From assembly GCA_023146575.1 (NCBI GenBank), contig JAGLBU010000013.1, positions 1-12,647 on the forward strand: a stretch of DNA of 12,647 nt, in the 5' to 3' direction. Numbering within the stretch: the stretch's first letter is position 1; each line of letters starts with the position of its first letter. Below, in pieces: positions 7,189 to 12,122 of the stretch. Source of the stretch: Methylococcales bacterium. Lineage in GTDB: Bacteria; Pseudomonadota; Gammaproteobacteria; Methylococcales; Methylomonadaceae. The notes below the pieces were generated by a model. It made no database searches. It worked only from the letters and a program-made list of their open reading frames with translations, and had not been told where the DNA came from. Position numbers and translations under genes: made by a program.

Positions 7189-7860
7189 TTACGTCATTTT
7201 TGATAAGTCTTGACGAATTTGCTGTAAATATTCATCGGTGAGCGGGTGATGTAAATGATCTTTCATTTCACCGTCTAATTTTAATGCCACAAAATTAAGG
7301 GTTCGGATAAAATCTTCAAAGACTTCACTCGGATGTGCGACTTGTTTTGGCTGCATAAAAAAAGATAAACCTGGGCACGAAAAATTTTTTAGATCATCTT
7401 TTGGAAAAACGCCTGGATTTACAATATTCGCGACCGCAAAATCAACCATATTATTGCCATCAATACGTTCAAAAATTTGTAAATTACCGTATTTTAAGCC
7501 GACATTATCCAAAATACTAAAAATATCCTCACCGCTAAAGCCTTTTTCAGAGGGGGAAATAATAGAAAGCTGAAATAAATCCATTGATGGTGGAGGGGAA
7601 AGTCGTACTTTTGGCGCGGCAGTTGAAGTATTTTTTAGAGGATCACTAATTATCTCTGAAGTTTTTTTCAACACCGATGAAATGACATCAAAGGTGTGGC
7701 TTTTTTTAGTTGAGTCGTCTTCCTTATCAGGTTTTGTCTTATCAAACGCTTCAAAATCGCGTTCATCTTTCTGGTGTTGCAAAAAGCTCCATGCAATCAT
7801 CCCAATAACCGTCAAGACTCCAATCAGAAAGATAATAATTCTTAATGTTTCTTTATCCAT
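7189..7860 (-). CDS. zipA: Cell division protein ZipA
   Basis: A 223-residue ZipA. ZipA tethers FtsZ filaments to the inner membrane and helps recruit the later division proteins. A short N-terminal stretch (MDKETLR) precedes one membrane helix (about 8-27). Then come a charged linker rich in Lys, Asp and Ser (28-92) and the FtsZ-binding domain from about 94 (LFQLSIISPSEKGFSGEDI, then VANIVNPGVFPKDDLKNF and CPGLSFFMQ). It is shorter than E. coli ZipA (328) because the linker is short. Its ATG overlaps the TAA of an smc remnant (TAATG), and its ribosome binding site AGGTGG (7868-7873) lies inside that remnant. In related bacteria the order is smc-zipA-ligA. Here neither an intact smc nor ligA adjoins it, and rbgA is convergent. 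Confidence 0.92.
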   Translation of the reverse strand: MDKETLRIIIFLIGVLTVIGMIAWSFLQHQKDERDFEAFDKTKPDKEDDSTKKSHTFDVISSVLKKTSEIISDPLKNTSTAAPKVRLSPPPSMDLFQLSIISPSEKGFSGEDIFSILDNVGLKYGNLQIFERIDGNNMVDFAVANIVNPGVFPKDDLKNFSCPGLSFFMQPKQVAHPSEVFEDFIRTLNFVALKLDGEMKDHLHHPLTDEYLQQIRQDLSKMT

Positions 7861-7973
7861 TAGCGTGCCACCTGTTTTACTGCATTTTTAATATTTACAG
7901 CAACCTGTCGCGAAACACTCGCATTATTCATGGTTACTCCCATTAGCTGTTTGAGGATTTCATCATGGTATTG
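7860..7973 (-). pseudogene. smc: 3' remnant of smc (chromosome condensin), about 37 codons
   Basis: An open frame on the minus strand runs from just after a TGA (7976-7974) to the TAA at 7862-7860. Its protein contains ILKQLMGVTMNNASVSRQV followed by AVNIKNAVKQVAR. This matches the extreme C-terminus of SMC proteins (consensus D-x-L-x-G-V-T-M-x-x-x-G-V-S-R-x-V-x-V-x-x-x-x-A), the last strands of the ATPase head. All of the remaining roughly 1,100 residues are missing: upstream sequence is AT-rich with stops in every frame. The position directly before zipA is where smc normally ends. The remnant holds the zipA Shine-Dalgarno, which would explain why it survived. An internal ATG at 7931-7929 with GGGAG before it could still produce a 23-residue peptide coupled to zipA. 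Confidence 0.75.
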
Positions 7974-7992
7974 TCATGTGAAATAAATAAAA

Positions 7993-8020
7993 ATTGTACC
8001 GACTTTATAGATTGCTTCAA
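7993..8020 (-). promoter_or_regulatory. Candidate promoter for zipA beside the smc junction
   Basis: On the minus strand, -35 TTGAAG (8020-8015) and -10 TACAAT (7998-7993, 5 of 6 to consensus) are separated by 16 bases, predicting a start near 7986. This is the only reasonable promoter between recA and zipA in that direction. It lies just upstream of the truncated smc sequence, so it would give zipA its own transcript now that the upstream gene is gone. Prediction only. Confidence 0.45.
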
Positions 8021-8189
8021 GTCATTTTGTGATATTAATTTGAAAATAAAGCATATGTAAGGTTAGTACTGCTTGGTTAATGCTCTAAAAAATGAAACGA
8101 TATTCTACCAAAATTGACTTTAAAAGGCTTTTCTTTCAAAACATAGTGACCATTTTTTCCCTTAAAGCCCCTATAAAAAATAGGCTCTA

Positions 8190-8198
8190 TGTGATAAT
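8190..8198 (+). promoter_or_regulatory. Candidate extended -10 promoter for recA
   Basis: TGTGATAAT has a TGn extension plus GATAAT (5 of 6), 38 bases before the recA ATG. No proper -35 lies at 16-18 bases. A short hairpin CCTAT/ATAGG (8170-8174 and 8180-8184) lies just upstream. No canonical LexA box of the CTG-N10-CAG type could be found between 7974 and 8235. Confidence 0.4.
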
Positions 8199-8235
8199 AG
8201 TGCTTTATTTATTATCCTGTTGAGGAATTTTAATA

Positions 8236-9255
8236 ATGGACGACAAGAAAAAACAAGCCTTAAGTGCCGCATTAATGCAAATAGAAAAACAATTTGGAAA
8301 AGGTTCTGTGATGCGTATGGGTGACTCCACTGCGTTACGTGGGCTTGATATAGTCTCAACAGGGTCTTTATCCTTAGACATAGCACTTGGTTGCGGCGGG
8401 TTACCTAAAGGGCGTGTGGTTGAAATTTACGGGCCTGAGTCATCAGGTAAAACTACCATGACATTAGAAGTTATTGCTCAAGTCCAACAACAAGGTGGCA
8501 CGGCGGCATTTATTGATGCTGAACACGCTTTAGATATAGGTTATGCTGAAAAAATTGGCGTTGATATTGATGATTTATTATTATCACAACCCGATTTTGG
8601 CGAACAAGCATTAGAAATTACCGAAACCTTGGTGCGCTCTAATGCCATCGACATTATTGTGATTGATTCTGTCGCTGCGTTAACGCCACGTGCAGAAATT
8701 GAAGGTGGCATGGGTGACAGTCATATGGGCTTACAAGCAAGATTAATGTCGCAAGCGTTACGAAAATTAACTGCTGTTATTAAACGCAGTAATACCCTGC
8801 TTATTTTTATCAATCAATTGCGTAGTAAAATTGGGGTGACCTTTGGCAGTCCTGAAACCACAACAGGCGGTAATGCCTTAAAATTTTATGCCTCGGTTCG
8901 ACTGGATATTCGCCGTATTGGGTCGATTAAAAAAGACGATGAAATTATTGGTAATGAAACCCGTATTAAAGTGGTTAAAAATAAAGTTGCCCCACCGTTT
9001 AAAGAAGCGCGCTTTGATATTCTTTATGGAGAAGGCGTTTCTTTTACAGGAGAGCTGATTGATTTAGGCGTGAAATATGGCCTATTGCAAAAATCAGGTT
9101 CTTGGTATCGCTATGGAGATGAAAAAATAGGTCAAGGAAAAGAAAATGTTCGCACTTTTTTAAGCACTCACCCCGATAAAGCCGAACAGTTAGAAGGACA
9201 AATTCGAGCAGAGGTGTTTCAAGATCAATTAGCCCCTAAAAAACGAGGTGAATAA
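8236..9255 (+). CDS. recA: Recombinase RecA
   Basis: A 339-residue RecA, the ATP-dependent strand-exchange protein of homologous recombination and co-protease of the SOS response. Walker A is G-P-E-S-S-G-K-T at 66-73; the DAEHALD block (94-100) with E96 and Y103 is present. Loop L1 and the L2 region with F203 and [12 protein letters not shown] are intact. Numbering matches E. coli through the core. Several usually constant positions differ: Phe121 for Thr in SQPDTGEQ, Ile101-Gly102 for Pro-Ile, Ser197 and Thr202 for Met in L2. The acidic C-terminal tail is absent (ends APKKRGE). GAGGA at 8222-8226 sits 9 bases before the ATG. No recX follows; rsmB is convergent 12 bases away. The identification is certain; the effect of the substitutions is unknown. 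Confidence 0.97.
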
Positions 9256-10569: not shown

Positions 10570-11495
10570 TCGCCTAGTTGAATACCATTAACTTGATGAG
10601 CATTTAAAAAAGCGTGAATAAGCATGCGTTTTCCATTGGGAAGCTGGATTTCTTCTAAACGTAAAATACCCTCACCTGTACCGACTAATAGGGTTTTTCC
10701 ATCGCTAAAAACCGTTGCAATCGCTAATTTTTTAGGGCTATTTTTTTCAATGATCGCGCGCCAAATTCGCATGTTTTTGCCTTTATATAAAGTTTGCGCC
10801 ACTGGCCAAGAATTTAAGCCACGAATTTGTCGATCTAATACGATTGCCGTTTGTGTCCAATCCAATTGTGATTCGGTTTTTTGTAATTTTTCCGCATAAG
10901 TGACAAGAGATTCATTTTGCACTTCAGGGGTTAATTGGGCATTTTCAAGTTGTGATAAAACTTTTTTTAAGCCAATTGCGCCTAAATCAGCGAGTTTGTC
11001 GTGTAAATCACTGGATGTGTCCTGTTCAGAAATGGGGCAATATTTTTTATGTAGCATGTCACCCGCATCCAGCTTTTTAATCACTTGCATAATGGTGACC
11101 CCTGTTTCGGTATCCCCTGCCATCAAGGCACGGTGAATGGGCGCTGCCCCTCGCCAACGTGGTAATAAAGAACCATGAATATTTAAACAACCTTTTTTAG
11201 GGGCATCTAAAACTGCTTGTGGCAGTATCAAGCCATAAGCCACCACAATCATGAGGTCGGCATTAAAGCTCTGTAGGGTTTTGAGTGCGTCAGAGGTTTT
11301 AAAGTTTTCAACCTGAACCACGGTTAAATTCGCATCCAGTGCTAACGCTTTTATAGGAGAGAGTTTCAGTTTTCGACCACGTCCAGAAGGGCGATCAGGT
11401 TGGGTATAAACCGCACAAATTTCATGCTTAGAGTCAATCAGCATTTGCAAGGTGGGAACAGCAAAATCAGGTGTGCCTGCAAAAATTATTTTCAT
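10566..11495 (-). CDS. fmt: Methionyl-tRNA formyltransferase
   Basis: A 309-residue Fmt (E. coli 315), which formylates initiator Met-tRNA using 10-formyl-THF. It opens with MKIIFAGTPDFAVPTL and the loop Q-P-D-R-P-S-G-R-G-R-K-L (32-43) used for tRNA recognition. The catalytic set is Asn105, His107 (C-L-N-I-H-G-S-L-L-P-R-W-R-G-A-A-P) and Asp143 (K-L-D-A-G-D), equivalent to N108/H110/D146. The C-terminal OB-like domain follows (about 205-309). Its ATG overlaps the hepT stop as ATGA, and no Shine-Dalgarno precedes it (AGAAAAAACAA), so translation probably depends on ribosomes finishing hepT. def, the usual upstream partner, is absent; a toxin-antitoxin pair occupies its place. Confidence 0.96.
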   Translation of the reverse strand: MKIIFAGTPDFAVPTLQMLIDSKHEICAVYTQPDRPSGRGRKLKLSPIKALALDANLTVVQVENFKTSDALKTLQSFNADLMIVVAYGLILPQAVLDAPKKGCLNIHGSLLPRWRGAAPIHRALMAGDTETGVTIMQVIKKLDAGDMLHKKYCPISEQDTSSDLHDKLADLGAIGLKKVLSQLENAQLTPEVQNESLVTYAEKLQKTESQLDWTQTAIVLDRQIRGLNSWPVAQTLYKGKNMRIWRAIIEKNSPKKLAIATVFSDGKTLLVGTGEGILRLEEIQLPNGKRMLIHAFLNAHQVNGIQLGE

Positions 11496-11839
11496 TTGTT
11501 TTTTCTAAACTGTTTTAATTCTAATAATAAAGGCGGAATATCGGTTGTAATAATGCTCCACAGAGTATCATTATCAATGCCTAAATAGCCATGAATTAAA
11601 AGATTACGCGTGGCAATAATTTGTCGCCATGGAATATTGGGATTATTTTGGCGTATCGCTTCAGGAATATGGGTTGCCGCCTCACCGATTAATTCTAAGT
11701 TACGAATAGTGGCATCATAATTTAATTCATTGTTCACAAAATCAGTTTGAGAAAATTTTTTTGTGTAAGTCATTACTTTTTCAGCAAAGCCAATCATGTC
11801 ATCAATATAAAAAAGCCATTCACGAATGATTTTAGACAT
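11492..11839 (-). CDS. hepT: HEPN-domain toxin, HepT-like RNase
   Basis: A 115-residue helical protein of the HEPN/DUF86 (HepT) family. The active motif R-x4-H-x-Y is seen as R78-N-L-L-I-H83-G-Y85. Upstream it has the family block RNLELIGEAATHIPEAIR (46-63). HepT toxins are metal-independent RNases; in the Shewanella HepT-MntA system the MNT partner inactivates the toxin by adding AMP groups to the motif tyrosine. The ATG at 11839 is chosen over an upstream in-frame start at 11887: the family begins here and the longer form would lie deep inside mntA. The start overlaps the mntA stop by 8 bases, and its own stop overlaps the fmt start by 4. All active-site residues are present, so it looks functional. 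Confidence 0.88.
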   Translation of the reverse strand: MSKIIREWLFYIDDMIGFAEKVMTYTKKFSQTDFVNNELNYDATIRNLELIGEAATHIPEAIRQNNPNIPWRQIIATRNLLIHGYLGIDNDTLWSIITTDIPPLLLELKQFRKNK

Positions 11840-12122
11840 CAATGGCTTCTTGTTCAATAAAAGGTCGTAACTGAGGGCGTAGTGCATTATCGGTGACTAA
11901 ATCAACGTTGCATTGTAAGCTATCTTCTAAATAAAATTGCAGACCAAAATAACGTTTTGAATTTGCAAAACCCTCGAAGGCGACCAAAATATCAACATCA
12001 CTATTTTTTAAAGCCTCGTTGCGGGCGGTTGAGCCAAATAAAGCCAGCCGAGTAATACCAAATTGTTGTATTAGGGTTGGTTTAATTTTCCGTAATATTT
12101 CAAGGGTATCGGCTCGAGTCAT
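11832..12122 (-). CDS. mntA: MNT-type nucleotidyltransferase antitoxin, MntA-like
   Basis: A 96-residue minimal nucleotidyltransferase. The signature G-S-x10-D-x-D is exact: G30-S31, then D42-V-D44. A third acidic residue, D74 in N-V-D-L-V, completes the metal site. In HepT-MntA systems this antitoxin transfers AMP from ATP to the toxin's active-site tyrosine. The paired gene hepT follows with an 8-base overlap. The ATG lies 3 bases after the fabB stop (TAA AAA ATG) with no Shine-Dalgarno, so its translation probably depends on fabB. This is unusual for a toxin-antitoxin pair, which normally has its own promoter and autoregulation; no promoter is obvious in the fabB 3' end, though that was judged by eye. 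Confidence 0.88.
   Translation of the reverse strand: MTRADTLEILRKIKPTLIQQFGITRLALFGSTARNEALKNSDVDILVAFEGFANSKRYFGLQFYLEDSLQCNVDLVTDNALRPQLRPFIEQEAIDV

Follow-up and report, generated by a model that had tools for sequence, protein, structure and literature searches.

Natural lineages without SMC have been described before: according to excerpts of the respective reports, the Coxiella-like tick endosymbiont CLEAA has lost smc, scpA and scpB (PMC4494066), and the Desulfurococcales are archaea without SMC proteins (PMC10769869). Laboratory deletions of smc are documented as well, again in excerpted reports; in B. subtilis the deletion was rescued by slower replication forks (PMC3919155), and in C. 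glutamicum FtsK compensates for it (PMC11898615). A literature search on SMC loss or SMC-less methanotrophs, from whose coverage subscription papers mostly fall out, gave nothing on the group treated here among the matches listed.

The window, i.e., the whole stretch of DNA analysed here, is an entire contig of 12,647 bases from a draft genome of 1.59 Mb in 378 contigs, which is 73% complete (G000). It contains a short stretch directly upstream of zipA that is very probably what is left of an smc pseudogene, a relic of the lost Smc-ScpAB condensin that would have been kept for the translation start of zipA. The features of this region are:

7189 to 7860, minus strand: zipA, intact (PF04354, ZipA_C)
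7863 to 7973, minus strand: smc relic, in-frame 3′ end of 37 codons (tblastn, 74-tail profile)
7868 to 7873, minus strand: AGGTGG, probable zipA ribosome-binding site within the stub, with 7 nt to the ATG (by reading of the sequence)
7955 to 8011, minus strand: smc relic, continued in a different frame, SVQFLFISHDN... (tblastn and profiles)
8012 to 8235, no strand: intergenic, from the relic to recA, with no SMC similarity detected (tblastn, profiles)
8236 to 9255, plus strand: recA, intact, oriented away from the relic and zipA

The smc tail upstream of zipA

The 37-codon frame at 7863-7973 on the minus strand corresponds to the extreme C-terminus of bacterial SMC. It is bounded upstream by a TGA at 7974-7976 and ends with a TAA at 7860-7862, which overlaps the zipA ATG as TAATG. 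We built a profile from 74 SMC C-termini of zipA loci in the family and ran it over the six-frame translation of the window, cut from stop to stop into 607 fragments of 12 aa or more. Only two of these passed the inclusion threshold, namely the 37-codon frame (30.0 bits, E 1.4e-8, profile positions 58-86) and its neighbour at 7946-8062 (14.8 bits, E 8e-4, positions 41-59), and the two cover consecutive parts of the profile. The third-best fragment reached about 3 bits, and with this tail profile the top score after shuffling the intergenic region 2000 times (order-1 Markov) was 8.4 bits. Searches by tblastn with intact SMCs returned the same two pieces. A full-length profile made from 65 full family SMCs (E up to 0.05) placed the relic at positions 1123-1167 in two pieces, one with 25.9 bits (E 5e-8) and a weaker one with 8.9 bits (E 0.007). 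The initial annotation had identified the stub as the 3′ end of smc in front of zipA, and the distance between its score and that of the best shuffle, together with the agreement of tblastn, bears this out.

What remains of the bacterial SMC protein (TIGR02168) is the C-terminal tail that is conserved in the SMCs of the family. The coiled coil, the hinge and the C-terminal head with Walker B are missing from the relic, as the match starts after them; for the N-terminal ATPase head with Walker A, neither an SMC N-terminal match on the window contig nor an SMC in the 73% complete genome was found. The 37-residue piece alone gives no match in Pfam and NCBIfam with the usual filters. Altogether, the relic extends over about 7863-8011 and carries a truncation, a frame change near 7955-7961 that breaks the SMC similarity into two frames, and a stop, the TGA at 7974-7976, which is part of the damage. 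It lies in the syntenic place of its parent gene, directly before zipA.

The breakpoint had initially been set at 7960-7975; this has to be moved, as SMC-derived sequence runs on via the frame change to about 8005-8011. Neither tblastn nor the 74-tail and full-length profiles detected SMC similarity beyond about 8011 (8012-8235), and on sequence grounds the event that joined recA to the relic is placed between about 8012 and 8235. The proposed juxtaposition of recA and a former smc-zipA pair holds for the window, but it is one of several junctions, with a different gene in G001, G002, G004 and G005. Around the junction, repeats amount to matches of 10-11 nt only, and the three sigma-70-like sites at 7800-8300 compare with a shuffle mean of 2.5, which is uninformative on promoters. 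Neither a tRNA nor an Rfam family reaching its gathering score was found in the window. At 11492-12122 on the minus strand, two small genes, by eye a HEPN/nucleotidyltransferase-like pair, adjoin an fmt-like gene.

Related zipA loci and their decayed smc tails

We found 25 relatives of the window ZipA, three of them 86-89% and one 97% identical to it. Among genome contigs, 148 loci of ZipA relatives were confirmed, with records labelled Methylomonas, Methylobacter, Methylococcaceae and similar; the 80 best of the 148, all of them named, were used. Sequence upstream of zipA exists in 78 of these 80 (L115 and L152 start at zipA). In 75 of the 78, a complete SMC tail or one truncated by the end of its contig stops 3-9 bases from the zipA start; the three exceptions, L088 (G005), L089 (G004) and L149 (G002), all belong to the window's genus. 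These loci show that smc directly before zipA is the ancestral order in the family. A second smc-zipA pair was observed in G020 (G020:C3:275494-279705), whose smc consists of two open frames of 226 and 964 aa; a full-length smc is also present on C5 of this genome.

Farther upstream, six of the 11 intact loci that were read have a gene named by eye as queF-like on the opposite strand, directly adjacent to smc in five and at a greater distance in L133. The queF-like gene stands about 210 bases before zipA in G002 and G017, with smc gone, so that smc was seemingly removed in place in these two. The upstream neighbour of the relic or zipA differs in each of the window, G001, G004 and G005, and is different again in G002.

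Smc relics precede zipA in G000, G001, G004 and G005, i.e., in four of the five genomes of the genus lacking both a full SMC and ScpA, and each has different lesions. With the full-length profile at E ≤0.05, the G001 relic consists of four pieces within positions 1000-1170, that of G004 covers 1005-1038 and 1143-1171, and that of G005 has three pieces across 1107-1170, of which two are weak. No smc piece before zipA was detected at E 0.05 in the SMC-less G002, G017 and G048. The last of these was considered as a carrier of a relic and rejected, its zipA sitting among other genes. Farther upstream in G001, 47 bases can be aligned to the sequence preceding smc in G003, and in a similar way to that in G030; a tblastn match, with an E value of only 0.66, also hints at the smc start there. 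If real, this would correspond to a loss of roughly 1000 internal smc codons in G001.

Over the last 23 codons, the window stub and the G001 relic differ at 9, 4 and 11 sites in codon positions 1, 2 and 3, with 12 non-synonymous and 5 synonymous codons; for the intact smc pair G030-G248 the corresponding differences are 4, 1 and 13. The window stub appears to carry little codon-position bias and to be under little constraint, as judged from 23 codons only. Between the relics of G001 and G004, with 1, 3 and 9 differences, a third-position bias remains. Therefore, the loss was recent there, or the codons were constrained until lately, and smc may have been lost more recently in G001 and G004 than in the window genome.

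Distribution of Smc-ScpAB, MukB and ParABS

We scanned 61 related genomes, with nine SMC candidates fully scored in each. A full SMC above the cut-off was found in 52 of them, whereas none of the nine candidates passed as such in G000-G005, G017, G048 and G050. From these, G003 has an SMC N-terminus at a contig end and keeps ScpA and ScpB, and G050 has an SMC fragment only. ScpA was detected in 53 of the 61 genomes (missing from G000, G001, G002, G004, G005, G017, G037 and G048) and ScpB in 54 (missing from G000, G001, G002, G005, G017, G037 and G048); SMC, ScpA and ScpB are missing from nearly the same genomes. All three are absent from G001, G002, G005, G017 and G048, which are 92-99% complete, and G037 (87% complete) lacks ScpA and ScpB, yet has a full SMC.

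Within the window's genus, five of the six genomes have neither a full SMC nor ScpA. ScpB is absent from four of these five and half-length in the fifth, G004, where the match covers profile positions 79-159 only. This frame is open and precedes an rluB-like gene; what was kept of scpB is its 3′ half, in the same pattern as the smc tail before zipA. G001, G002, G004 and G005, all without a full SMC and ScpA, are 92-96% complete assemblies of 1.9-3.0 Mb (G001 in 5 contigs). Across the whole family, ScpA was present in 204 genomes out of 237; of the 173 with a completeness of 90% or more and no more than 5% contamination, 153 have it. The genus of G017 contains 15 genomes without SMC among 18; the SMC of the remaining three is whole in G248 and in pieces in G240 and G238, where the two pieces fetched end at contig ends, and only these three carry ScpA. 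G048, from another family of the order, has no SMC, ScpA or ScpB and keeps ParB and an exact parS. It is a further case of loss.

For the window genome itself, at 73% completeness in 378 contigs, the absence of smc is not settled by this assembly alone. Four PF02463 matches in it were considered as an intact smc and rejected, as they look by translation like other AAA/ABC-type ATPases; one of them reached 41.5 bits, just over the cut-off of 40, in a frame of 405 aa and is by eye another AAA ATPase.

An SbcC tree of 12 rows (none from G000 and G017, which yielded no SbcC), with every inner branch well supported, places G002 outside G003, and G003 outside G001, G004 and G005. As G003 keeps ScpA, ScpB and at least part of SMC, by this order the genus lost the complex twice, the alternative being a regain of the genes by G003. 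In a ZipA tree of 19 rows (G007, G011, G023 and G034 left out), at least two changes are required by branches with good support, and G017 groups with the SMC-bearing G248, away from the window's genus. From the two trees, at least two losses follow for the window's genus and a further one for that of G017.

MukB was found above the cut-off in three of the 61 relatives and in none of the six genomes of the window's genus. G022, a member of the family with a full SMC, shows a MukB-like match of 107 bits as well (G022:C63:30683-31342). The SbcC_Walker_B model gave one match each in G001, G002 and G005, SbcC-like in G001 and G002, and in G003 a second match of similar score. Two kinds of candidates were rejected as condensins: the Walker-A proteins of 1152-1153 aa in G001 and G002, whose best NCBIfam matches were SbcC models below their curated cut-offs, and a large extra SbcC_Walker_B ATPase of G004, which is the JetC of a Wadjet set. 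Searches for MukB and SbcC_Walker_B revealed no condensin substitute shared across the genus.

ParB was found in 54 of the 61 genomes and remained undetected in all six of the window's genus as well as in G023 (520 contigs). The genes following rsmG are parA and parB in G017 and G018 and other genes in G001, G004 and G005, and in G003 the contig ends there. G030 has ParB elsewhere and none after rsmG, so this place alone proves little. A parS site was present at the stringency used in 28 of the 61 genomes, and its absence therefore means little; the reversed control pattern matched one of the 61. Exact parS sites occur four times each in G003 and G004, with two of the four just before gyrB, which weakens the claim of a ParB loss. 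These pairs upstream of gyrB (G003:C277:1128-1204, L204; G004:C89:44060-44111, L201) stand in genomes in which no ParB was found. G005 has a copy with one mismatch before a gyrB-like gene. Altogether, a loss of ParB in the genus is much less secure than that of Smc-ScpAB.

Alternative readings and comparison with known systems

The pattern suggests that the Smc-ScpAB condensin became dispensable and that the smc and scp genes decayed via deletion, frameshift and rearrangement. The final 30 to 50 smc codons would have survived because they hold the zipA ribosome-binding site, AGGTGG at 7868-7873, and the overlapping start TAATG; G002, which lacks this overlap, counts against such a retention. 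As a protein, the stub most likely does nothing. Chromosome segregation would presumably proceed without a chromosomal condensin, through slow replication, Topo IV and FtsK/XerCD.

An intact smc in the unassembled quarter of G000, with the stub as a scar of translocation or duplication, would fit the low completeness of this genome and the fact that G003 keeps scpA, scpB and at least part of smc. It is nevertheless very unlikely, since the four relatives of 92-96% completeness also lack SMC and ScpA and have half an ScpB at most, and relics stand at the same place in three of these relatives, G001, G004 and G005. The draft assembly with its many short contigs could also suggest an error of assembly or binning at the junction. 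However, such an error would leave scpA and scpB in place, the frame changes within the relic itself, and differently broken relics exist elsewhere, one of them on a 2.97 Mb contig, which makes this explanation highly improbable.

The stub could instead be functional, either as a small protein or as a short leader ORF in translational coupling with zipA. The TAATG overlap, an inner GGGAG-ATG noticed by eye, the last 28 codons being open in G000, G001 and G004, and the third-position bias between G001 and G004 speak for this, whereas the inner ATG is ATC in G001, the frame is broken in G005, the overlap is lost in G002 and the codon-position bias is small in G000; we consider such a function unlikely. 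It is doubtful, too, that another condensin replaced Smc. The JetABCD set of G004 is complete and includes a MukB-like JetC, and the second SbcC_Walker_B match of G003 could be counted in the same direction, but JetABCD is described as plasmid defence in an excerpt of PMC11898615, the genus has no MukB, and G001, G002 and G005 possess a single SbcC_Walker_B match each, of which the two scanned (G001, G002) are SbcC-like. An unrelated protein might still have taken on the role. The expectation, raised by the initial annotation, of an intact smc elsewhere or another condensin in its stead was not confirmed: neither was found, and four nearly complete relatives are without SMC, ScpA and MukB. The decay of smc to a remnant at the zipA start remains the preferred reading. 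With somewhat more confidence than doubt, we further suggest that several species-level Methylomonadaceae-type lineages with genomes of 2-3 Mb independently lost Smc-ScpAB and gained no MukBEF, one genus perhaps having lost ParABS too, and that they are natural condensin-free gammaproteobacteria, in which a chromosome of normal size is segregated in some other way.

The repeated loss, in genomes of 1.9-3.0 Mb and beside close relatives with the complex such as G003 and G248, provides a natural comparison for the need of a condensin. Intermediate steps are visible in the smc tail before zipA, the scpB tail before the rluB-like gene and the changed parS-like site before gyrB. With CLEAA, the lineages described here share the joint absence of smc, scpA and scpB in a gammaproteobacterium (PMC4494066, in excerpt); CLEAA is reported there to lack dnaA, ftsK and Topo IV as well, whereas here the assemblies measure 1.9-3.0 Mb and the smc and scpB remnants can still be seen. 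The Desulfurococcales resemble them as a natural SMC-less lineage, but these are archaea with, as far as the excerpted report goes, an order-wide absence (PMC10769869), compared with repeated loss within one bacterial family that left relics. The smc deletions of B. subtilis and C. glutamicum, as excerpted, likewise demonstrate life without Smc, yet they are laboratory deletions and not natural losses.
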